DNA of 64,000 nucleotides from an uncultured Albidovulum sp. (GTDB lineage: Bacteria > Pseudomonadota > Alphaproteobacteria > Rhodobacterales > Rhodobacteraceae). Both the position numbers and the translations under genes were made by a program. Below, one piece after another: positions 5,480 to 44,450 of this stretch (position 1 is the first letter of the stretch; the number at the start of each line of letters is the position of its first letter). Where the stretch lies: assembly GCA_913064775.1 (NCBI GenBank), contig CAJYAD010000001.1, positions 186,001-250,000 of the forward strand, given 5' to 3'. The notes under the pieces were generated by a model. The model did no database searches. It was not told the origin of the DNA and saw only the letters and a list, made by a program, of their open reading frames with translations.

Positions 5480-5896
5480 TCAGTCCGGGATCACCGCCGT
5501 CGCGTCGATCTCGACCAGCCATTCGGGGCGGGCCAGCGCGGTGACCACCACCCCGGTCGAGACCGGGTGCACGCCGCGGATATATTCGCCCATCGTGCGG
5601 TAGACGGCCTCTCGGTGGCGCACGTCGGTCAGATAGACCACCACCTTGACCAGATGCTCCATCTCGCCGCCGGCCTCTTCGATCAGCTGGCGGATGTTTT
5701 GCATCACCTTGTGGGTCTGCGCGACCGGGTCGTGGCTGGCGATGCTTTGGGCGGTGTCCAGATCCTGCGGGCACTGGCCGCGCAGCCAGATTGTCGCGCC
5801 GCCACGGCTGACGACCGCCTGGCACAGGTCGTTGTCGAGCTTCTGCTCGGGGTAGGTGTCACGGGTGTTGAACGGGCGGATGCGGGTGTGAACCAT
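5480..5896 (-). CDS. RidA/YjgF/Rut family protein
   Basis: A 138-residue Rid-family trimer-forming protein. Canonical members hydrolyse reactive enamine or imine intermediates to ketoacids and ammonia. Visible motifs are QAVVSRGGATIWLRGQ near the start, an acidic helix around MQNIRQLIEEAG, VKVVVYLTDVRHREAV and a C-terminal ARPEWLVEIDATAVI. The arginine of canonical RidA (in a CRVQV-like context) is not evident, so it may belong to a non-canonical Rid subgroup. The ATG at 5896 has AGAAGGA upstream on the minus strand. It follows the flavoprotein monooxygenase by 32 bases on the same strand, so an operon is likely and an amine-oxidation intermediate could be its target. Confidence 0.85.
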   Translation of the reverse strand: MVHTRIRPFNTRDTYPEQKLDNDLCQAVVSRGGATIWLRGQCPQDLDTAQSIASHDPVAQTHKVMQNIRQLIEEAGGEMEHLVKVVVYLTDVRHREAVYRTMGEYIRGVHPVSTGVVVTALARPEWLVEIDATAVIPD

Positions 5897-5928: not shown

Positions 5929-7182
5929 TCATTCCTGATCGGGGCGATAGGCCAGATAGCTGCGTCTTGTGGCGATATGTTCGGCCAGATGACGCGCGTC
6001 CTGCCAGACGCCCCAGATAAAGCTGGATTTGCGCCCCGTAAGCCATGGCAGGCCCAGGAAATAAAGCCCCGGCACAAGGCCCACGCCGCGCTGATGCCGG
6101 GCGCGGCCCTTGGCATCGACGGCGCCGTCGATCTTGAGCCAGTCGAAATCCTGCGCGTAGCCGGTGGCCCAGATCACCGTGCTGATCCCTGCCCCGGCCA
6201 GATCGAGCGTCTCCAGCGGATGGGTCAGGCAATCGGGGTCGGGCGGGATCTCTCGTGCAGCCGGCTCGGGCGGCAGATCAAGGCCGTTGCGGGCGATATA
6301 GGCATCGGCCTCGTCCAGAAGTTGCAGGTAATGCGCGTCGCCCCGGGCGATGTTGCGGGCGAGATCCGGGGCGAAGCTCAGCCGCCCGTCAACATAGCTT
6401 TCGCTGCGTCCCACCAGGGTCAGCCCGCGCGCGGCGAGGCGGCGGAAATCGATGGTCTCGCCGCCATGGGCGCCGCTGACGGCGATGGTGACATGTTCGC
6501 TGCCCTCAGCGGCGGGGGGCAGATCCCATTTGCCCAGCACCCCCAGCCACCAGACGAAATCGCGCCCACGGTAGCGGCGCGGCGGGCGGTCATGCGGGCC
6601 GACCGACAGATAGACGCGGCGCCCAGAGGCGGCGATCTCTTCGGCGATCTGCACCCCCGAGGCACCGGCGCCGATCACCAGAACCGCCCCCTCGGGCAGC
6701 GCGCCGGGGTTGCGGTAGGCGGCGGAATGGATCTGGGTGAGACCGGCGGTGGCGGGGATCAGCGGCGGGATCAGCGGGCACTGAAACGGGCCGGTGGCGA
6801 CGACAAGGCGCTGGGCCTCAATCGTTCCCGCGCTGGTCTCTACCTGAAAGCCGGGGGCGCCGGTGCGGGGGCGTGCTCGGGTCGCGGTGACGCCGCAGCG
6901 GATCGGGGCGTGGTTGCGCCGCGCGTAGCTTTCCAGATAGTCGGCCACCTCTTCCTTGGCCGGAAAGTCTTCGGCGGCGGTCTGGGCGAAGGGTTGATCG
7001 GGGAAGCGGTCGTGCCAGGCCGGGCCGTTCGCCACCATCGAGTCCCAGCGCCCGGAGCGCCAGCGTTCGGCGATCCGGGCCTTTTCCAGCACCAGATGCG
7101 GGACGCCCTGGCGGTTCAGATGCGCGCTTACCGCGATGCCGGCCTGACCGCCGCCCACCACCAGGGTATCTATCTGCTCCAT
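5929..7182 (-). CDS. NAD(P)/FAD-dependent oxidoreductase (CzcO-like flavin monooxygenase)
   Basis: A 417-residue flavoprotein with two dinucleotide-binding motifs: LVVGGGQAGIAVSAHL at residues 7-22 for FAD and VLVIGAGASGVQIAEEI mid-protein for NAD(P)H. The third family signature VIWATGYAQDFDWL lies toward the C-terminus. This architecture matches the CzcO/YUC-type class B monooxygenases that oxygenate nitrogen, sulfur or ketone substrates. It is the first gene of a likely two-gene operon with the RidA protein downstream, which fits oxidation of an amine followed by clearance of an imine, but no substrate can be named. Confidence 0.82.
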   Translation of the reverse strand: MEQIDTLVVGGGQAGIAVSAHLNRQGVPHLVLEKARIAERWRSGRWDSMVANGPAWHDRFPDQPFAQTAAEDFPAKEEVADYLESYARRNHAPIRCGVTATRARPRTGAPGFQVETSAGTIEAQRLVVATGPFQCPLIPPLIPATAGLTQIHSAAYRNPGALPEGAVLVIGAGASGVQIAEEIAASGRRVYLSVGPHDRPPRRYRGRDFVWWLGVLGKWDLPPAAEGSEHVTIAVSGAHGGETIDFRRLAARGLTLVGRSESYVDGRLSFAPDLARNIARGDAHYLQLLDEADAYIARNGLDLPPEPAAREIPPDPDCLTHPLETLDLAGAGISTVIWATGYAQDFDWLKIDGAVDAKGRARHQRGVGLVPGLYFLGLPWLTGRKSSFIWGVWQDARHLAEHIATRRSYLAYRPDQE

Positions 7183-7326: not shown

Positions 7327-9711
7327 CTAGCTCTCGTCGTCGGCGTCGTCGGCGTCCTCGGCGTCTTCGGGGGCCTCGGCGGCGGGCGTGTCCGACAGCA
7401 CCGGCAGTTCGAACCAGAACAGCGATCCCTTTTGCGCGCGCGGGGCGTAGTTCACCGAGCCGTCGTGCAGGCGCATCAGGAAGGCGGCCACCGCCAGCCC
7501 CAGACCCGCGCCTTCGGCGGCGCGGCTGGGGCTGGAATCGGCCTGGGTGAAACGATCCCAGATCTTCTTGCGGTTCTCTTCGGGCACGCCCGCGCCCTCG
7601 TCCTCGACCGTGACCATGCCCAGAAGCCCGTCCGTGGTGCGGCGGACGCCAAGGCGCACCTCGCCGCCCTCGGGCGAGAACTTGACCGCGTTCGACAGCA
7701 GGTTCTCCAGCACCAGTTCCAGCCGTTCCTTATCGCCCGACACAAGGACGTTTTCACAATCCTCGGCCACCACGATCCGCACGCCCGAGCGCGCCTCCAG
7801 CTCTTGCCGGTAGGCGGCAGAGGCCGCGACCAGATCCACCAGATCCAGCGGAGTGCGGGCGACCGAGTGGATGTTGCCCTCGAATTCCATCATTTCGGTC
7901 ATGTTGACGATCAGCCGCCGCAGACGTTCGCTGTTGGTCGCGGCGATGCCGATGAACCGTTCGCATTTCTCGGGGTCGTTGCGGATCGTGTCATTGCCCA
8001 GAAGCTTCAGGATCCCGTGGATCGAGGTCAGCGGCGTGCGCAATTCATGGCTGACGGTGGCCAGGAATTCCGATTTCGCCTGCTCCAGCTTCTGGCGCTC
8101 GGAAATGTCGCGCAGGATGCCGATGAAATGCAGGTTGCCGTCGATCTCGGTCTCGGTGACGGTCAGTTCCAGCGGAAAGCGGCTGCCGTCGCTGCGCCGG
8201 CCGATTTCCTCGCGGCCCGCCCATTCGATCTTGCGCTCGCCGCTTTCGACATAGCGGCTTAGGTATTTGTCGTGCGACCGCGCCTGGCGCAGCGGCATCA
8301 GCATGCTGATATTCTCGCCCAGGACCTGCGCGCGGTCATAGCCGAACATACGCTCGCAGGCGGGGTTGAAGTTGAGGATCGTGCCGGTGCTGTCGATCGT
8401 GACGATGCCTTCGCCAATGCTGTCGAGGATCAGGTTCAGGCGCGTCTCGGCCTGGACGCGGTGGTCGAAGAGCTTCTGAAACGCCCGCGCCAGGCGACCC
8501 AGTTCGTGGGGCCAATCTTGCGGCAGGCGCAGCTCGGAACGGCCCGTCGTCGCATCGTCGATCGCGCGTCCCAGCACGCGCAGCGGGCGCATGGCCATGC
8601 CGATCAGGATCACGGTAGCGATCAGCGCGAACGCCATGACCAGACCGGCCGCGACCCAGCCTTCCCAGGTCGGGTTGCCGAGCGCGCTCAACAGGTCTGG
8701 CAGGGATTCGACATAGGCCACTCGAAGCAATTGCCCGGGCTGGTCCGGCGACAATTCCACCGTGGTGTAATAGCCGATCGCATCCGAGAAGGTCAGGGTC
8801 CCGCTTGTCGCCTTGGTGTTCTGGATGTTTCTGACCAGCGCCGAGGGCGCATGGGTGTAGTCGCCGCTGAACTGGAAATCCGTGGTGTCGTTGCGACCGT
8901 CGACCGTCAGGTAATCGCCCTGATCATTGGTCACCACTGCCCGCGCCGTTTGCGGCAGCTTGTCGAAGACATGGGTCAGAAGGTCACTGTAGTCGAAGTT
9001 CAGAACGACGAAGGCCACCGGCTGTTGCGCCGGGTTCAGCAGCGGGTACATGACTCGCTGGGTGAACACCACGGGGTAGGAGATCTTGCCGAATTCGCGG
9101 TTGAAGTCGATCCGCGAGAACAGGGCAGGCGGGCGAACTACGCCCGCCCGGGTGCTTGCCTTCCAATCGTGTCGCGCGACAGTCTTGAAATAGCTCTCGT
9201 TGGATTTGTCCTGCAGCCCGGCCTCTGGCACGGACGAGACCGACCCATCGGGCAGCTTGTCGATGCGCAGAATCTCTTGTCCGCTGCGGATCGAGATGAC
9301 CCGCGCCTGGACATACTCGTGATTCGTTTCAAGAAGCGTCTCGAACAGCGCGGTGGCCGCCTGCTTCGCCAACGCCGGATTGGCGACGGGTGGCACAGCC
9401 CCGTCGGTGGGGGCGGTGTCGGCGGCCGGCCCATTGCCGATCGCCAAAGGGAGTTTCTTCTGGATTGGTCGCAGACCTACGATCATCCGCACACTGGCGG
9501 TATTGCCCATCAGGGCGGCGTCGCGCGCGAACTGTTTGAACTGCAACTCATACTGCCGGGCTAGCCAGATGGATTGAGTCTGCACCGTCGCCCTGGCGCC
9601 GGCCTGCGCGATTTCGCGTGCCTGCAGGTGGAACAGCACGGCGATGATACCCGCCGCCACGATCGCGACGGCGCCGGTGACAGCTGGGATGGAGACACGA
9701 AGTGAAAACAA
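7327..9711 (-). CDS. Membrane sensor histidine kinase with periplasmic cache-like domain, HAMP and PAS
   Basis: Inner-membrane kinase of about 794 residues. A first membrane segment lies at residues 8-28, a large periplasmic region of double-cache type to about 355, a second membrane segment at about 358-382, then a HAMP-like linker, a PAS domain (about 433-550), the dimerisation box FLATVSHELRTPL with His555, the N box LENLLSNAVKFSP, and the glycine boxes VEDEGAGVPEE and GAGLGLAV. No receiver domain is fused and no response regulator lies nearby, so its partner is elsewhere. The last 20 residues are a strongly acidic Glu/Asp/Ala tail encoded by GTCGGC-like repeats. The start appears to be TTG with a weak ribosome site. 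It lies 229 bases downstream of the NrtA-like binding protein on the same strand. Confidence 0.85.
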   Translation of the reverse strand: MFSLRVSIPAVTGAVAIVAAGIIAVLFHLQAREIAQAGARATVQTQSIWLARQYELQFKQFARDAALMGNTASVRMIVGLRPIQKKLPLAIGNGPAADTAPTDGAVPPVANPALAKQAATALFETLLETNHEYVQARVISIRSGQEILRIDKLPDGSVSSVPEAGLQDKSNESYFKTVARHDWKASTRAGVVRPPALFSRIDFNREFGKISYPVVFTQRVMYPLLNPAQQPVAFVVLNFDYSDLLTHVFDKLPQTARAVVTNDQGDYLTVDGRNDTTDFQFSGDYTHAPSALVRNIQNTKATSGTLTFSDAIGYYTTVELSPDQPGQLLRVAYVESLPDLLSALGNPTWEGWVAAGLVMAFALIATVILIGMAMRPLRVLGRAIDDATTGRSELRLPQDWPHELGRLARAFQKLFDHRVQAETRLNLILDSIGEGIVTIDSTGTILNFNPACERMFGYDRAQVLGENISMLMPLRQARSHDKYLSRYVESGERKIEWAGREEIGRRSDGSRFPLELTVTETEIDGNLHFIGILRDISERQKLEQAKSEFLATVSHELRTPLTSIHGILKLLGNDTIRNDPEKCERFIGIAATNSERLRRLIVNMTEMMEFEGNIHSVARTPLDLVDLVAASAAYRQELEARSGVRIVVAEDCENVLVSGDKERLELVLENLLSNAVKFSPEGGEVRLGVRRTTDGLLGMVTVEDEGAGVPEENRKKIWDRFTQADSSPSRAAEGAGLGLAVAAFLMRLHDGSVNYAPRAQKGSLFWFELPVLSDTPAAEAPEDAEDADDADDES

Positions 9712-9940
9712 GTCTGGTGCTCGTTGGTTTCTCGTTGCGATCGGCCAAGGCTTTCCGTCGCGGCAGCGGGCCTTTTGCCTGTCCTATCGTCTATACGGCG
9801 GTTCTTCCATACCCCGGTCATCGATGTCGACACCGGATCGCAAAGCCCTGACCGCCGGGATGCCGCTTCGCGCGGCGGGCGTCCTGGCGGTATCTTGGCC
9901 GATTGAACGATCGGCTATGGGGTAAATACGCGAAAGGGCC

Positions 9941-11350
9941 TTAGTTCTGAAGCTTGATCCTGTCGGACGCGGTTTCCCTTCCCTTCAGGCCGATTTCGAA
10001 CTGATCGAGATAGGCATTGGGCTGGCGCGCGTCGAAGATCTTGCCGTCGATCGCGGCGGCGTCGGGTTGGTGGCGATTGCTGCCGTCCTGCCAGTCGAAA
10101 TCGCTGGATTTCGCCCGGCCCGCGGCGACCAACTGGTGCGCCGCTTGCAGATAAAGCGCCGGGCGGAACACCGCGCGGGCGGTTTCATCATACCAAGCGT
10201 CGTGCTTGTAGGTCGCGATCTGGCCCCAGCGGCGCATCTGGGTCAGGTACCAGGTCGCTTCGGAATAGAAGGGGATGCCAGCGCTGCCGCGAAAGAAGCG
10301 CGACGGCTCTTTCAGCAGCCGCTCGGTGTCCCCCGAGCCGCGCGAATGCCCCGACAGCGACAGCGCGATGACCGAGGCGCTGATGCCCACATATTCCGGC
10401 GCCGCCAGCATCCGCGCCGCGACCTCGCGGTTCTCGCCGTTGTTTGCATCCAGCCAGATCGAGGCGCGGATCAGCGCCCGCACCAGTGCGAGGGTGGTGT
10501 TGGGGTTTCGCGTGGCAAAGGCCTGGCTGATCACGAAGGCTTTCTCGGCCCCGCCGGGACGGATCGCCGAAGAACTGATCACCGGCACCCCTTGGTCCAG
10601 CACCGCCGCGCTCTGGTTCCAGGGCTCGCCCGCGGCAAAGCCCTGGATCGTGCCGGCTTCCAGTGTCGCCGTCATCCGGGCGGCGGGAACCGGCCAGATG
10701 TCGATCTGCGCCCCGGCGGTCCCGGCCTTGTCGCTGGCCGTGTAATAGCCCGGCCTAATCCCGCCCGCCGCCAGCCAGTAGCGCAGCTGGTAATTGTGCG
10801 ATGAAAGCTCTGACACCACAGCGAAGCCCAGACGCGGGGCCGGTCGGGCGACGTTGTGGTTCGTGCCAGACAACACGTCGGCCCGAATCGGCAGACTGAC
10901 CTGACCATCCGGATCGGTCGCAAGGGCGGGGCGGATCTGCTTCCAGATCTCGCGCGACAGCGTCACCGCATTGCCGTTCGTGCCCAAGATCAGCGGCACG
11001 ATCAGGTCAGCCCGCGCGCCATAGCCGATGCGCGTCGCCAGCGGCAGGCCCACCGGTGCCTGAGATCCGTCCAGCGCCCCCGACAGAAGCCGGGCCTCGA
11101 GCACGCCGATATCGGATTGCGGCTCTAGCGTGACATCAAGACCCTCGGCTGCGAAATATCCCAGCTCCTTGGCCACGATGATCGGCGCGGCATCGGTCTG
11201 CTTCAGATAGCCGAGCGTCAGATGTGGGGTCTCTATCGGCCCGGTGCCGGCGCCGGAGAAAGGGCGTGTCAGTCCGACAAGCGCCAACGCCGCGCCTGCA
11301 AGCAGGCCGCCCAGTAGGAACGTTCGTTTCGTCAAGCGCAACCTGTGCAC
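9941..11350 (-). CDS. NrtA/CmpA-like solute-binding protein with N-terminal Tat-like anchor
   Basis: A 469-residue protein of the nitrate/bicarbonate/sulfonate binding family, about the length of NrtA and CmpA. The N-terminus LTKRTFLLGG followed by a hydrophobic stretch resembles a Tat signal or signal anchor with a Lys-Arg pair. The family start LTLGYLKQTDAAPIIVAKELGYFAAEGLDV and the GAARADL-like ligand region with LGTNGNAVTLS are visible. It starts at GTG (11350) with GGAGGG seven bases upstream. No ABC permease or ATPase gene accompanies it; instead a histidine kinase follows. A receptor role feeding the kinase is therefore an inference. The ligand could be nitrate, bicarbonate or another small anion and cannot be assigned. 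Confidence 0.8.
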   Translation of the reverse strand: MHRLRLTKRTFLLGGLLAGAALALVGLTRPFSGAGTGPIETPHLTLGYLKQTDAAPIIVAKELGYFAAEGLDVTLEPQSDIGVLEARLLSGALDGSQAPVGLPLATRIGYGARADLIVPLILGTNGNAVTLSREIWKQIRPALATDPDGQVSLPIRADVLSGTNHNVARPAPRLGFAVVSELSSHNYQLRYWLAAGGIRPGYYTASDKAGTAGAQIDIWPVPAARMTATLEAGTIQGFAAGEPWNQSAAVLDQGVPVISSSAIRPGGAEKAFVISQAFATRNPNTTLALVRALIRASIWLDANNGENREVAARMLAAPEYVGISASVIALSLSGHSRGSGDTERLLKEPSRFFRGSAGIPFYSEATWYLTQMRRWGQIATYKHDAWYDETARAVFRPALYLQAAHQLVAAGRAKSSDFDWQDGSNRHQPDAAAIDGKIFDARQPNAYLDQFEIGLKGRETASDRIKLQN

Positions 11351-11654: not shown

Positions 11655-12848
11655 ATGCGACTGTCAAACAAGGCGGCAATCTGGATCGCGGCGTTTTCTG
11701 TTCTGTTCGTCGTGGTGGGGCTTTATGCGGTGCGTTCGTACCGCGACGCCTTCGAGGCGAGCGTTCAGGCCAACAGCGTCGAACGCAGCGGCGAGGCGCT
11801 GAAACTGATCATCAACCGCTCGCTCAACCGCGAATGGGACAGTCTTGACGCGCTGGCGAGTTCCGCCGACGTGAACAACCCGATCCGTCTGCAGCGCATG
11901 GCCGACACCATGCCGCGTGCCAGCCGCCGTCTGTCCTGGGCCGGGTTCATCTCGACCGGCGGGATCGTCGAGGCCGGCACCGGCGGCGCCGAGGTCGGCT
12001 GGAACGTCTCGAAGGCGCGCTGGTTTCGCAGTGCGCTGCGCGGGCCGACGCTCAGCGACCCGTTCCAGGCCAAGTCGGGCTCGGGGCTGGCCAGTTTCAT
12101 CAACCTCGCCTATCCGGTGCGCCGCGATGGCGGTCAGGTGGCGGGGGTGCTGGTCTACCGCCTCAGCATGAGCTGGCTCGAAAGCTTCGTGACCGATTCC
12201 GCCAAGGCGCTGGGCATGGATGCCTTCGTCGTCGACAGCGCCGGCAACATGCTGGTGTCGGCGCATACGGTGTCGGGGGCGCCGCCCTCGGCGGCCTCGC
12301 TGCATGCCGCGCGGCTGAGCATGCTGCGCGGGCTGTTGCCGGTCGAGACCCGCGAGGCGGGCTATGTCAGCGCCTCGATCCCGCGCCTCCTGGGCAACTC
12401 GCTGCGCAGCAACGACTGGACGCTGATCGTGCGGATGCCGAACCGGCTGCATGTGGCGGTGGGCGGAGAGACCTGGCAGCGTGCCGAGACCGCGCTGATC
12501 GCGATCGCGATGATGGTGGGGCTGTGCCTGATCGCGGCGATGCGGATGTTCCTGCGCCCGATCGAGATTCAGTCGCAGGCCCTCATCGATCTGACCGAGG
12601 GCAAGTTCACCTACCCGCCGGAATTCCACAGCTCGCGCGAGGCGCGTGATCTGGGGGCGTCTCTGGCCTTTCTGCAGACCCAGTTCGAGGATCTGCGCGC
12701 CAAGGTGAACGCCGGTGTCGATGGTCGAGGCGGCGCTGGTGGCGCTGGTGGCACCGGCAAAGGCACATCCCCGGATGCGTCCGGCAAAAGCGGCCGTGTG
12801 GCCCGGCTGCACCCGGTGCGCGGCAATCCCTACCGCAAGGCCAGCTGA
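11655..12848 (+). CDS. Stand-alone membrane cache-domain sensor without output domain
   Basis: A 397-residue inner-membrane protein. It has an N-terminal membrane segment at residues 8-27, a periplasmic region to about 270 with cache-like elements (SWAGFISTGGIVEAGTGG, a KARWFRSAL helix, LASFINLAYPVRRDGGQVAGVLVYRLSMSWL), a second membrane segment at about 277-298, and a short HAMP-like piece ending near 350. The last 50 residues are Gly/Ser/Lys-rich and look disordered. There is no kinase, GGDEF, EAL or methyl-accepting domain, so it would need a partner protein. AGGGGG precedes the ATG. It is convergent with bgsA and divergent from the NrtA-like gene, so a role in sensing for one of these systems is plausible but unproven. 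Confidence 0.75.
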   Translation: MRLSNKAAIWIAAFSVLFVVVGLYAVRSYRDAFEASVQANSVERSGEALKLIINRSLNREWDSLDALASSADVNNPIRLQRMADTMPRASRRLSWAGFISTGGIVEAGTGGAEVGWNVSKARWFRSALRGPTLSDPFQAKSGSGLASFINLAYPVRRDGGQVAGVLVYRLSMSWLESFVTDSAKALGMDAFVVDSAGNMLVSAHTVSGAPPSAASLHAARLSMLRGLLPVETREAGYVSASIPRLLGNSLRSNDWTLIVRMPNRLHVAVGGETWQRAETALIAIAMMVGLCLIAAMRMFLRPIEIQSQALIDLTEGKFTYPPEFHSSREARDLGASLAFLQTQFEDLRAKVNAGVDGRGGAGGAGGTGKGTSPDASGKSGRVARLHPVRGNPYRKAS

Positions 12849-13069: not shown

Positions 13070-15046
13070 TCACTTCGGCCTCAGGCCGAGTCGCCTGATG
13101 ATGTCTTGCGCCAGCGCCGCGCCGCGCACCTGAGAGATGCCGGGAACGCCACGGCGCGCATAGAAGCGCCGGGCGAGGCGGGCGCGCTGTTCGGCGTCCG
13201 GCTGCAGGGCAAGCACGACCCCGTCCTCGGTTTCGCGCTCGGCGCTGCAGGGCACGTCGCCCACCTCTGGCAGGCGCAGCACGCCTTGCGCCCCGGCGGG
13301 ATAGGCAAAGCCGCGGATCCGGGCGCGCTCGGTCGTCAGGTTCACGATCCAGACGCGGTGGACCTGACGGCCCAGTTGCACGATCACCCGTTCCGGGGCG
13401 TCGCCGACATGCATCTCGCGGCGCGGCAACTCGATGCAGGTGAAGATCATGACTGCCAGCACCACCAGATTGTAGAACGACCAGAACAGGATCACGATCT
13501 TGCCGTCGCCGGCATCGGCGAAGGCGAAGCGGTCGGACAGGATGCCGATCAGCAGCCCGCCAAGCGTCAGCGCGAAGAGTACGAGGAAGGGCCACATCAG
13601 CCCCCATTGCACGACCACCTCATCGCGCGCGCCACCCTTTGCGGTGACCTTGAAGCTTTGCGGTTTGCCGCTTAGCAGCCCGGTGAAGGCGCCGCGCACG
13701 ATCGGGATCGCCCCCACCAATTGCTGAACGTCGTTCAGGATCGGCGCCAGCATGTTGCCGAACAGCAGATAAAACGTCATCAGCGTCCAGACATAGTAGC
13801 AGCCGAAGTAATCGATCGCCTCGCTCAGCGGCGCGTTCAGCACGGTGACATTGCCGAACCAGTAGAGCATCGGAAAGATCAGCGCGGCCAGCCGGAACAG
13901 GAAGGTCGTGGTCCAGTAGAACGAAGAATCGAGGATGCTCCAGCGCCCCATCAGGCCCAGCTTCGCGCGCCCGAAGGGGCCGAAGCGGCTGCGCGCGATC
14001 TCCAGCGTGCCCATGCCCCAGCGGCCGCGCTGGGTGATGTATTCCTTCAGCCCCTCGGGGGCGAGGCCCTCGGTCAGCGCTTCGTTCAGATAGATGGTTC
14101 TCCAGTCGCGGCCGCGCAGCACCTGGGTCAGCAGGAAGTCTTCGGTCACGCTGATCGTCGGGAAGCCGCCGATCTCTTGCAGCGCCTGCCAGCGGATCAT
14201 CGACGACGTGCCGCAGCAGATCGCGATGCCCCAAGCGTCGCGCGCCGGCTGGACATGGTCGAAGAAGAAGCGCTGCTCATCCGGGAAAGAGCGGGTGAGC
14301 CCCAGGTTGTGCTGGATCGGATCGGCGTTGAAGAAATGCTGGGGGGTCTGCACCAAGCCGACCCGGTGGTCGTGAAACAGCGCCAGCGTGCGTGAGATAA
14401 AGCCGTGGTGGGGCACGAAATCGGCATCCAGAACGGCGATGAAATCGGGGGGCGTACGGTCGGCGGCCAGAACCCCGAGCGCGTTGTTCAGGTTGCCGGC
14501 CTTGGCGCCCTTGTTGCCCTCGCGCCGCAGGTAGCGCACGGAATTGGCGGCGCAATAGTCGCGCAGCCAGTCGCGGCGGCCGTCGTCCAGCACCAGGATC
14601 TGCTTGTTGCTGTGGCTCAGGCCACGGGCGCCGGAGATGGTGCGTTCAAGCACCTCGAGATCCTCGTTATAGGTGGCGATCAGGATCGCGACCCGGGGCT
14701 CTGGGTCGGGCTGCCACCAGCCCAGATGCGCCTTGGCTTCGGCCTTTCGGTCGCGGGTCCGGGTCAGGATCAGCGAGGCGCTGAGCGCGCCGATCATGGT
14801 CAGCGCCTCGATTATGAAGAACGACAGGCTGGCGACGTAGTCCAGCGTCAGCCCCGGCGGCGCAAGGGTGGCTGTCCCCCGCCACCACAGATAGCGCAGC
14901 GCAAAGACCGCGACGCCAAGGTACAAAAGGGCGCGATGGCTTGTCCGTTCGCGCGAGATGAAAAGCGGCAGCACTAGCGACAGGCCCAGGATTGCCAGCA
15001 CATGCATGAAGGCGGATTGGACGGGGTCGAGGTAAAGCATTGGCAT
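13070..15046 (-). CDS. bgsA: Processive GT2 beta-glucan synthase (BgsA/curdlan synthase-like)
   Basis: A 658-residue inner-membrane family-2 glycosyltransferase that polymerises and exports a linear beta-glucan from UDP-glucose. It has membrane helices at the N-terminus, then a cytosolic GT2 domain with VAILIATYNED, VLDDGRRDW, AVLDADFVP (DxD), VTEDFLL (TED) and QRGRW at 339-343, and further helices. After the last membrane segment comes a cytosolic C-terminal domain of about 110 residues rather than a standard PilZ domain. In Sinorhizobium meliloti, BgsA makes a mixed-linkage (1-3)(1-4) beta-glucan and its C-terminal region binds cyclic-di-GMP. Curdlan synthase CrdS is the main alternative. 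The pairing with a HlyD-like gene only 6 bases upstream favours BgsA. Confidence 0.78.
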   Translation of the reverse strand: MPMLYLDPVQSAFMHVLAILGLSLVLPLFISRERTSHRALLYLGVAVFALRYLWWRGTATLAPPGLTLDYVASLSFFIIEALTMIGALSASLILTRTRDRKAEAKAHLGWWQPDPEPRVAILIATYNEDLEVLERTISGARGLSHSNKQILVLDDGRRDWLRDYCAANSVRYLRREGNKGAKAGNLNNALGVLAADRTPPDFIAVLDADFVPHHGFISRTLALFHDHRVGLVQTPQHFFNADPIQHNLGLTRSFPDEQRFFFDHVQPARDAWGIAICCGTSSMIRWQALQEIGGFPTISVTEDFLLTQVLRGRDWRTIYLNEALTEGLAPEGLKEYITQRGRWGMGTLEIARSRFGPFGRAKLGLMGRWSILDSSFYWTTTFLFRLAALIFPMLYWFGNVTVLNAPLSEAIDYFGCYYVWTLMTFYLLFGNMLAPILNDVQQLVGAIPIVRGAFTGLLSGKPQSFKVTAKGGARDEVVVQWGLMWPFLVLFALTLGGLLIGILSDRFAFADAGDGKIVILFWSFYNLVVLAVMIFTCIELPRREMHVGDAPERVIVQLGRQVHRVWIVNLTTERARIRGFAYPAGAQGVLRLPEVGDVPCSAERETEDGVVLALQPDAEQRARLARRFYARRGVPGISQVRGAALAQDIIRRLGLRPK

Positions 15047-15052
15047 GGCGGC

Positions 15053-16222
15053 TTAGAAGAAGCTGCGCAGGAAATCGAGCGGCGAGGTCTGGAAGAACAC
15101 GCGCCCCGTACGGCCGATCGCGCATTGCAGATTCGGGTCCGCCGCCAGCCCCGGCACCGCGATGGCCACGTCGAAGCGCTGCAGGTGGCGGCGGCTGGGG
15201 GCGACGGCCAGACCCTCATAGACGGTGGCCGCGCCAGAGCCGGCAAGGCGCAGGACATAGCCTTCGAACAACCGGTTCTCGCCCAGCGCGCGGAAGGTGA
15301 CCTTCTGACCCCGGTGCAGTCGCTGATAGGTGATCTCGGGCACCGATGCGGTGACAAGCACCCGGTCGCAATCCGCGACCCGCGCGACCGGATCACCGCG
15401 GTTCACATAGCCGCCGCCATGGGCCAGCTCCTGCCAGTAGATGCCGTCGACATGGGCCAGGATATCGCGGGTGCCGTCGATCTGCGCATCGCCCTTTCCC
15501 TGCTTGAGCCGCGCGGCAACCACCGCGACGCGCTGCTTTTGCGCGATCTCGCGTGCCTTGAGGTCGGCGAGGTTCTGGTCCAGCAGCAGCGTCTGCTGTT
15601 CGGAATAGGGCGCGTCGTTGTAGCCGTCGCCCAGATAGGTGCCCTTTTGGGCGGCGGCCAGCGCCTCTTCCAGCACCGCCACGCGTTCCTGCGCGCGGTT
15701 CAGGGCCAGACGGCCGGCGGTGGTGCCATCGCTCGCCGCGCCGTTCTCGCCGCTGCCCGAAGACGCCGCGCCAGGGTCCGTGACGGCCTTGGACGCGGCG
15801 GGGCCTTGCAGCGCCAGCCGCTCGCGCGCGAATTTCAGCTCCAGCGTCAGGGTCTGGATGCGGCCGGCCTGAAAGGCCGTGGTGCGCTGCTGCAACCGGT
15901 CGCGAAAGCTGCGCAGACCGGTGGCCTCGGCCTGCATGCGGGCCAGCGCGGCCTGCTCCAGGCCCAGCTCCATCTGCAGATCGGCCAGCCGGGTGTGATC
16001 GACACTTTCGTCCGAGACCGTGGCCAGCACGTCGTTCGCGACCACGCTGCTGCCGATCTGGCGCTCGGGCACCGACAGCGTGCCGCCGATCGGCGCCCGG
16101 GCCAGCGTGACGGGGGCATTGATCGTGGCATCGGCGCTGGCGCCGGTCAGCTGTTCACCGACGATGACCCAGATCGCGACAAGCAGAACCACAATTCCGA
16201 CGGCGGCCTTGAAGTAACGCAT
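15053..16222 (-). CDS. bgsB: HlyD-like membrane fusion protein of the beta-glucan operon (BgsB-like)
   Basis: A 389-residue inner-membrane protein with one N-terminal membrane segment (residues 4-22), a lipoyl/barrel-sandwich start INAPVTLARAPIGGTLSVPERQIGSSV, two long alpha-helical hairpin arms between about 60 and 240 rich in Gln, Ala, Glu and Arg, and a return to the barrel near GGYVNRGDPVARVADC. This is the membrane-fusion-protein fold that helps carry product through the periplasm. GGAAGAG precedes the ATG. Its stop lies 6 bases before the bgsA start, so the two are translated from one message in the order bgsB-bgsA, as in the S. meliloti locus. Confidence 0.72.
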   Translation of the reverse strand: MRYFKAAVGIVVLLVAIWVIVGEQLTGASADATINAPVTLARAPIGGTLSVPERQIGSSVVANDVLATVSDESVDHTRLADLQMELGLEQAALARMQAEATGLRSFRDRLQQRTTAFQAGRIQTLTLELKFARERLALQGPAASKAVTDPGAASSGSGENGAASDGTTAGRLALNRAQERVAVLEEALAAAQKGTYLGDGYNDAPYSEQQTLLLDQNLADLKAREIAQKQRVAVVAARLKQGKGDAQIDGTRDILAHVDGIYWQELAHGGGYVNRGDPVARVADCDRVLVTASVPEITYQRLHRGQKVTFRALGENRLFEGYVLRLAGSGAATVYEGLAVAPSRRHLQRFDVAIAVPGLAADPNLQCAIGRTGRVFFQTSPLDFLRSFF

Positions 16223-43901: not shown

Positions 43902-44296
43902 CGCGCGGATGGCCGGACGGCCGCGTGCCCCGAAAGGGGTGCGAGGAAAGTCCGGACTCCATGAGATGATGGTGCCGGGTAACGCCCGGCCGGGGAAACC
44001 CGAGGGAAAGCGCCACAGAGAAGAGACCGCCCTCGCTTGCGGGGGTAAGGGTGAAACGGTGGGGTAAGAGCCCACCGCGGGCCTGGCAACAGGAACGGCA
44101 CGGCAAGCCCCACCAGGAGCAATGCCGAATAGGGGCCCCACGCGGCATGATCCCCTCGGGGATATCACCGCAGGGACGTCTCAGCCCGGGGCCCGGGTTG
44201 GCAGCTAGAGCCTGTCGGTAACGGCAGGCGCAGAGGAATGGTCGTCGAGGGGGCGCGAGCCCCTGAACAAAATCCGGCTTACAGGCCATCCGCGCA
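43902..44296 (+). ncRNA. rnpB: RNase P RNA (bacterial class A)
   Basis: Catalytic RNA that trims tRNA 5' ends. Helix P1 is closed by GCGCGGATGGCC (43903-43914) pairing exactly with GGCCATCCGCGC (44284-44295). The universally conserved elements are visible in order: GAGGAAAGTCCGGACTCC, the ACAGAGAAGAGACCGCC region, GGTAAGGGTGAAACGGTGGGGTAAGAG, and near the 3' side GCAGAGGAATG with ACAAAATCCGGCTTACAG. About 395 nucleotides, a normal size. It sits between the amidase and rpmG genes. Confidence 0.96.
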
Positions 44297-44450
44297 AATT
44301 CCTCCCATATTCCGGCAGGGTAAGGGGGCATCAAATCCGGATCTTCAGCCGCCTTTGTGGTTGACTCCGGTCGGGGCATCGCTAAAAGGCGGGCTTCAAG
44401 GATTTCACGGGCGGCGCCAGGGGTGCATGCCCGGCGCAAGGAGAGCGACT

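Follow-up and report, generated by a model that had tools for sequence, protein, structure and literature searches.

A far-diverged NrtA-type protein beside a double-Cache histidine kinase in Allgaiera: a possible receptor pair for a small anion

What use has a bacterium for a binding protein of the nitrate type whose gene lies beside that of a sensor kinase and beside no gene of a transporter? The question is raised by a stretch of 64,000 nucleotides (contig CAJYAD010000001.1, positions 186,001 to 250,000; hereafter the window) from an uncultured member of the Rhodobacteraceae deposited as Albidovulum sp. In it a gene encoding a protein of the NrtA/CmpA family stands upstream of one encoding a membrane histidine kinase, both on one strand and with no ABC genes alongside, which is a gene arrangement of the AioXSR kind (Table 1). 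The first-pass annotation of this DNA had seen the two genes and read them as a receptor system in which nitrate, bicarbonate or a like anion is presented to the kinase. Its observation is confirmed here and its interpretation partly supported. I propose that an NrtA-type protein has been taken over by the kinase next to it as a receptor subunit outside the cytoplasm, in the manner of AioX with AioS, and would put the chance somewhat short of even. Some parts of the case do not depend on it. The protein is an NrtA by family, stands apart from any transporter genes of its own, has diverged far, is now constrained, and has been found, as an orthologue group, only with the kinase. Alignments add that a position in its anion pocket has changed and that the motifs of the kinase are intact.

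What kind of binding protein is it? At a threshold of 0.001 it matches NMT1-type families alone in Pfam, with NMT1_2 above its cut-off. The closest solved relatives by sequence are the regulatory domains of NrtC and CmpC, and after these come NrtA and CmpA. Its AlphaFold model, with a predicted local distance difference test score (pLDDT) of 83.8, superimposes on NrtA (2g29) with a Z score of 49.1 and a root mean square deviation of 2.0 over 375 aligned residues. The same model reaches only Z 15.8 and 12% identity against structures of AioX, and so the protein falls outside the PhnD-like family to which AioX belongs. It is 47% identical to the NrtA of its own genome and 30% identical to NasS over 331 residues. 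NasS has the NrtA fold and serves as a sensor, not in uptake, and it is cytoplasmic and acts on the ANTAR protein NasT. NasS and NasT are both encoded elsewhere in this genome, and the window protein differs from NasS in its hydrophobic N-terminus and in its position on the NrtA side of the tree; nor does the window hold a match to NasT. The protein does not qualify as a subunit of an NrtABCD transporter either, no NrtB and no NrtC/D being encoded with it, in the window or at the corresponding locus of Allgaiera indica DSM 24802 (L032), and the earlier statement that transporter genes are missing beside the pair thus stands. The N-terminus had been described as a Tat-like anchor, a description that holds in part. 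A hydrophobic segment, putatively a signal or an anchor, is present in both species; the twin arginine is there in A. indica (NNRRTLLLG, followed by a cysteine in a lipobox-like place) and is replaced by K-R in the window protein (LTKRTFLLGG).

It might be supposed that this is simply the one NrtA of the genome, displaced from its operon. That supposition fails, because contig C6 carries a nitrate assimilation operon encoding NasT, NasS, NrtA, NrtB, NrtCD, NirB, NirD and NasA, as named from reading the translations. With such an operon elsewhere in the genome, the window protein is a second NrtA-type protein. The operon, with its own NrtA, NasS and NasT, together with the 27 altered columns described below, bears out the annotation's view that the protein is distinct from both the NrtA of ordinary transport and NasS. 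NrtB has one close match in the genome, that of the operon, and six others with 23-31% identity over part of their length. In A. indica the NrtA of the nas operon is split over two overlapping frames (L153, 6597-7598 and 7505-8785, minus strand), by a frameshift or an error of the draft sequence.

How widely is the pair distributed? I consulted 394 genomes of the family, mostly one per genus, and 385 of the class. The annotation had reasoned that a pair scattered through most relatives would speak against it; the pair occurs in 2 of the 394 family genomes, that of the window and that of A. indica (G149). The search for the pair thus turned up these two genomes, and the search for a partner regulator turned up none linked to it in the window. 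Three congeners were compared, and the third (G150) lacks either orthologue: it has matches to NrtA and NasS, the former identical to the NrtA of Acidimangrovimonas sediminis, and its best match to the sensor is at 24%. The genes that flank the pair lie in that genome on different contigs, 47% and 69% identical, and no clean empty site can be read there. A profile search for NrtA, limited to four scored candidates per genome, found some match in 232 family genomes; 143 of these have a single full-length NrtA scoring 648 bits or higher. Among the matches listed, only two further full-length ones appear, both at about 577 bits, and they are the protein in the window and its orthologue from A. 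indica. The sensor region of the kinase is matched at an E-value of 0.001 or better in 24 of the family genomes, at 73% in A. indica, and the next-best family match by E-value after the two is 28% identical over 303 residues. In the class sample 27 genomes match, the best by E-value outside this genome at 30% over 299 residues; in both sets short stretches reach somewhat higher identity. As judged by these sequence matches, the family and class samples hold, beyond the two genomes of the pair, distant kinases only.

The same question can be put to the loci at which related binding proteins are encoded, of which 80 could be kept from 105 relatives. The kinase is present at one, that of A. indica. 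Among the other 79, there are 73 with at least one further nas, nrt or nir match in the flanks and 6 with none (L057, L059, L067, L082, L083 and L100; the contigs of L082 and L083 are shorter than 5 kb). At L063 and L075 the sole further match is to an ATPase of the NrtC type, some 9 kb distant. The annotation had allowed that its reading would suffer if an orthologue turned up with ABC genes restored and the kinase absent, and no such orthologue exists among the 80 loci, where the next nearest are NrtA proteins no more than 48% identical. That the same kinase might attend other NrtA genes was considered and rejected: matches to a kinase core occur in the flanks of eight loci (L035, L041, L068, L088, L089, L092, L101 and L103) and a weak match to the full kinase at L079, and no locus besides that of A. 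indica matches this sensor region. Rejected too was a pair carried about on plasmids, since the sensor matches 10 records of a plasmid collection, at best 31.7%, and the binding protein 421, all below 60%.

Some of these loci have kinases or other signalling genes of their own. In a metagenome-assembled genome (MAG) of the Caulobacterales (L092, 2043-5151), a hybrid kinase of the order PAS-HisKA-HATPase-REC lies immediately upstream of nasTS. Two MAGs of the Rhodocyclaceae (L089, 5716-7938; L068, 4920-7205) have a REC-PAS-SpoIIE protein immediately upstream of the genes for NasT, a NasS-type protein and NrtA, and L089 has a CHASE-PAS kinase further upstream. The NasT-type matches in two relatives are ANTAR proteins by Pfam. 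Several NrtA genes at the Flavobacterium loci (L054-L067) have no adjoining NrtB/NrtC-type gene in the available flanks, and at L054 and L056 NrtA lies between NirB- and NasA-like genes.

In a quick tree built from 81 rows, the window protein and its orthologue share a branch 1.55 changes per site long, set within the NrtA clade, from which 0.17 and 0.08 lead to the two species (the median tip is 0.097). The two fall with NrtA, not with NasS, beside the NrtA of two other members of the family. A branch of that length within that clade points to a much changed NrtA, come by through an old duplication or a transfer.

Where have the changes fallen? Nitrate in NrtA is contacted by Trp102, Gln155, His196, Gly240 and Lys269, Trp102 by a hydrogen bond (PMC13204499). 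The charge of the nitrate is balanced by His196 and Lys269, a task that falls to calcium in CmpA (PMC8786288), and His409 of CmpC is the equivalent of His196 (PMC11349869). I mapped the pocket solely from residue spacing, from this last equivalence and from family alignments; the histidine and the lysine are 73 residues apart in NrtA and 85 in the window protein, which has an insert of 12 residues relative to NrtC. The five positions so mapped are I81, N127, H185, G241 and K270. The full set of five is therefore not there: the tryptophan is lost, the histidine, glycine and lysine are kept, and asparagine takes the place of glutamine. Asparagine is found at that position in all of 89 NrtA-like rows (88 of them distinct), so four of the five match the NrtA relatives. 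The tryptophan is another matter. It is present in 141 of the 142 other rows, that is, in 89/89 of the NrtA-like ones and 52/53 of a more distant set (NasS-type and others), and both Allgaiera proteins have isoleucine. Nor is it alone, as 27 columns that are each at least 93% fixed in the NrtA-like rows differ in the window protein, and 24 of these have the same residue in A. indica (the exceptions are 86, 124 and 259). The changes common to the two species include L51Q, W81I, L99P, P223A, V240A, W264R, P268A and V271A. Seven of the altered residues are near-fixed in the 53 distant rows as well, namely L51, W81, D86, L99, P223 and V240 (52 or 53 of 53) and P268 (50/53), and several adjoin contact positions in the sequence. 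With the charge-balancing pair kept and one contact lost, I take the preference of the protein to have been altered towards an anion that need not be nitrate. With the tryptophan gone, there is less to be said for the nitrate or bicarbonate that the annotation suggested as ligand.

Could the protein be merely a decaying or functionless copy of NrtA, upstream of the kinase by chance? Between the two species it is 79.7% identical, with 0.126 nonsynonymous (dN) and 0.41 synonymous (dS) changes per site by NG86. The kinase is 80.2% identical (dN 0.114), a figure that combines 72% in the sensor domain (dN 0.169) with 88.5% in the HisKA-HATPase part (dN 0.063). Three flank genes give dN of 0.077 (flavin oxidoreductase), 0.064 (dCache protein) and 0.043 (glycosyltransferase). 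By two methods dN/dS is 0.19-0.31 for the binding protein, 0.16-0.26 for the kinase and 0.05-0.21 for the three flank genes. Both genes of the pair are constrained, yet they evolve faster than these three neighbours, and ratios of this size indicate that the binding protein is now under purifying selection. A decaying copy would account for the long branch, for the loss of fixed residues and for the confinement to two genomes. It is too much to ask, though, that such a copy remain full-length and open in both species at these values of dN/dS, keep its hydrophobic N-terminus and still be predicted to adopt the NrtA fold, and I regard the idea as highly improbable.

The other member of the pair is a kinase of the architecture dCache-HAMP-PAS-HisKA-HATPase, with no receiver, dCache standing for double Cache. 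In Pfam the PAS, HisKA and HATPase_c domains are above their cut-offs, HAMP and HK_sensor_dom_bact (PF21623) just below. It qualifies as a sensor histidine kinase by its phospho-acceptor H555 and its N, G1 and G2 motifs. A model of residues 1-420 (pLDDT 81.7) is predicted to be a double Cache, best matched by vpHK1S-Z8 (3lid; Z 22.9, 263 residues aligned, root mean square deviation 4.4) and by 2p7j. LuxQ is not among the 50 matches listed for this model, which does not bear on the periplasmic fold of the LuxQ type. The annotation's account of a cache-PAS kinase that follows the binding protein on the same strand is thus upheld.

The PAS domain brings in an alternative. Its best structural match is FixL, followed by DosP at 3e-16 to 2e-15, with other PAS structures at 9e-8 or weaker. 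H480, R486 and R500 occupy, in both species, the positions of the FixL histidine and of two arginines whose numbers I take to be 206 and 220. The histidine, His200 in BjFixL, is the proximal ligand of the haem (PMC10765370). Binding of haem by this PAS, and with it an input from oxygen, is possible on these residues. One might then suppose that nitrate or nitrite is still the ligand of the binding protein while the haem PAS reads oxygen, a switch like NreA-NreB built of different parts, and for this the preference for FixL and DosP and the retained equivalents of His196 and Lys269 could be cited. The difficulties are considerable. The position of Trp102 is isoleucine in both species, the NCBIfam model of FixL gives 136 of the 850 bits it demands, and 11 of 19 related kinases have the histidine and the second arginine (3/19 have the first), so the feature is not special to this kinase. 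I think the integration of nitrate with oxygen an improbable function for the pair.

The larger question is whether the two proteins work together at all. Gene order, strand and gap are the same in A. indica, and the flank genes are likewise conserved. In sister species with conserved flanks, however, adjacency counts as one event. Better evidence is the co-occurrence, each gene being present, as an orthologue group, in the same two genomes and nowhere else in the genomes searched, though this also may go back to one event. Several other facts tell against a receptor pair, and they should be faced together. The genes are 229 bp apart and the gap is partly conserved; the conservation of its kinase-proximal part leaves room for a separate promoter of the kinase, for which that half of the gap is a possible site. 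No match to a receiver domain occurs anywhere in the window, the kinase included, as the annotation had said of the kinase and of its surroundings, and no response regulator lies nearby. The two nearest receivers on the contig, 19 and 23 kb off, are single-domain CheY-like open reading frames (ORFs) in what appears, read by eye, to be a run of chemotaxis genes. The window protein does not group in the tree with the NrtA of its own genome, which groups with that of Acidimangrovimonas, and I am unsure of the attachment of so long a branch. In an alignment of 18 sensors seven columns do not vary, and this sensor retains them all (I139, E146, R149, Q167, N204, G208 and P223), as would be the case in a Cache domain that senses directly. 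Finally, an ORF of the NrtA type is found in none of 21 neighbourhoods of related kinases. When 13 neighbours of related kinases were scanned with Pfam, 8 proved to be receivers or receiver-containing kinases, 1 another kinase and 4 something else or nothing known, with no binding protein among them. The idea that the kinase could do its sensing with no binding protein draws chiefly on these neighbourhoods and on the shared sensor columns. The annotation's claim that an anion is presented to the kinase can be held only as a proposal, given an adjacency inherited from one event, genes 229 bp apart and the count of 0/21.

An alternative that takes these facts at face value has the binding protein load NrtBCD or a related ABC importer with a related anion, as an accessory in uptake, with an unrelated kinase next to it whose double Cache senses directly. 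One ABC importer can work with several binding proteins, and this genome offers NrtBCD and the six weaker permease matches. It is a strong rival, the chief one, and the retention of N127, H185, G241 and K270 as in NrtA and the 21 neighbourhoods empty of NrtA-type ORFs both suit it. It sits poorly with the finding that 143 family genomes each make do with one NrtA of normal score, a second full-length one being listed only in the two Allgaiera genomes; with changes at columns that are fixed in near and distant relatives alike; and with the co-occurrence of protein and kinase. I hold it to be a serious if doubtful explanation.

How might recruitment of the protein by the kinase have come about, and how would the pair work? 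An NrtA-type protein would have been freed from its ABC transporter in the Allgaiera lineage. Exported and kept at the membrane, it would close on a small anion, which need not be nitrate now that isoleucine has replaced the pocket tryptophan, and dock on the Cache domain of the kinase, switching autophosphorylation at H555. The FixL-like PAS may contribute an input of oxygen or redox state, and the phosphate would pass to a response regulator encoded elsewhere. In its boldest form the proposal is that the NrtA fold was independently recruited as an exported co-receptor, that it left its transporter, had its pocket rebuilt and was coupled to a kinase with a double Cache and a haem-type PAS. 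All of this together I judge unlikely, and were it so, one kinase would read an anion outside the cell through a partner and oxygen from inside, in two species that each retain an NrtA for transport.

There is precedent for a binding protein that serves a kinase in the sensing of an oxyanion, namely AioX-AioS (arsenite). Within a family whose other members work in ABC transport, AioX and its orthologues do the signalling, and a single regulatory cluster holds aioX, aioS and aioR; in Rhizobium NT-26, as here, a binding protein from an ABC-transport family is encoded with a sensor kinase, and the ligand of AioX is an oxyanion (PMC5908839). GltB, another periplasmic binding protein, exerts its effect by way of a sensor kinase, GtrS (PMC7927077), and LuxP and TorT are signalling binding proteins (PMC5908839). 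The present case differs from AioX-AioS-AioR in that its binding protein is NrtA-like, not PhnD-like, and in that no regulator is nearby, whereas aioR is clustered. In GltB-GtrS-GltR, LuxP-LuxQ and TorT-TorS, too, the binding protein works through the kinase, with families and ligands other than here. The NrtA of NrtABCD and the CmpA of CmpABCD are alike to the window protein in family and fold, and four of the five nitrate-contact positions are those of proteobacterial NrtA. The window protein differs in having no NrtB/C/D beside it, in the loss of the pocket tryptophan, in its long branch and in sharing its genome with another NrtA. A domain of the NrtA fold is in regulatory use in CmpC, of which entry 9uai was, by its title, solved with nitrate present. 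Kinases with a double Cache of the vpHK1S-Z8 kind share the sensor fold, and their 13 scanned neighbours include no binding protein.

No protein of the NrtA family acting on a histidine kinase appears among the open-access titles and abstract openings searched, which is weak evidence of absence, subscription papers being outside that scope. To my knowledge such a co-receptor would be the first of its family. A 2021 review of kinases that sense nitrate and nitrite deals with NarX, NarQ, NarS, NreA, McpN and NasR and, in the portion available, names no receptor of the NrtA type (PMC8199190). NreA of Staphylococcus is described there as a separate nitrate receptor for the oxygen-sensing NreB-NreC kinase system, and it is a soluble protein of the GAF fold (PMC8199190). 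The likeness to NreA-NreB-NreC consists in a separate nitrate receptor and an oxygen-sensing kinase; the difference is the GAF fold of NreA against the NrtA type of the window protein. Binding proteins of different families have become receptors of kinases more than once. If the proposal of a receptor pair is right, the nitrate/bicarbonate family supplies a further case, and nitrate-like anions are sensed outside the cell by a route distinct from those of NarX/NarQ, NasS-NasT and NreA. The converted protein, available from two species, could then be set against a relative still used in transport and against a congener that lacks it, and the steps of the conversion (change of the pocket, loss of contact with the transporter, gain of contact with the kinase) could be traced residue by residue.

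Table 1. Features of the locus, with positions in the window
Feature	Position	Strand	Remarks
NrtA/CmpA-family binding protein	9941-11350	-	469 aa; GTG start behind a GGAGGG stretch; NMT1_2 4.6e-60
Hydrophobic signal/anchor segment at N-terminus of binding protein (putative)	11261-11326	-	about residues 9-30; K-R, not R-R; from sequence and hydropathy
Intergenic gap between binding protein and kinase	9712-9940	-	229 bp; kinase-proximal half well conserved in A. indica (alignment)
Membrane sensor histidine kinase without receiver domain	7327-9711	-	794 aa; TTG start; Pfam
Extracytoplasmic double-Cache sensor domain of kinase (predicted)	8662-9624	-	about residues 30-350; PF21623 26.1 bits (cut-off 27); model against 3lid
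FixL-like PAS of kinase	8104-8442	-	residues 424-536; PF00989 2.4e-15; FixL 6.5e-24; H480, R486, R500
HisKA-HATPase_c core of kinase	7399-8079	-	H555 in SHELRTP; N, G1 and G2 motifs
Divergent neighbour: membrane protein with dCache-like region, no recognised output domain	11655-12848	+	dCache_1 35.4 bits (cut-off 45); 89% in A. indica

The gap between the two genes yields little else. A scan for promoters and terminators gave 1 and 3 sites where 1.0 and 4.0 would be expected, which is no more than chance. A riboswitch or other known RNA in the gap or leader is ruled out, the sole Rfam match in the window being the class A RNA of RNase P (43905-44297, plus strand, 292.7 bits). The kinase-proximal half, better conserved than the remainder, carries a frame of eight codons, ATG to TAG, that is kept in both species; it may be a promoter or a product of chance.

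As for the rest of the window, no second ORF of the NMT1 type occurs in it, and its one match to an NrtC-like ATPase (33.8-34.6 kb) is part of an ABC set of the His/Arg kind, for which an SBP_bac_3 protein is already provided. That the NrtA-type protein might serve this set (31.4-34.6 kb) was rejected on those grounds. The dCache-like neighbour on the divergent side is kept beside the pair in A. indica; it is context, and its membership in the system of the pair is only a candidate one. Beyond it come a cellulose-synthase-like family-2 glycosyltransferase (13070-15046; 352 of 699 bits with the CelA model), 92% identical in A. indica, and an HlyD-like protein (15053-16222), which together with that neighbour make up a set of the exopolysaccharide type. 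Downstream of the kinase, on its strand, lies a flavin oxidoreductase similar to MSMEG_0569 (5929-7182; 342 of 498 bits), found in the same place in A. indica at 87% identity, and after it, at about 5480-5870, an ORF that by eye reads as RidA-like.

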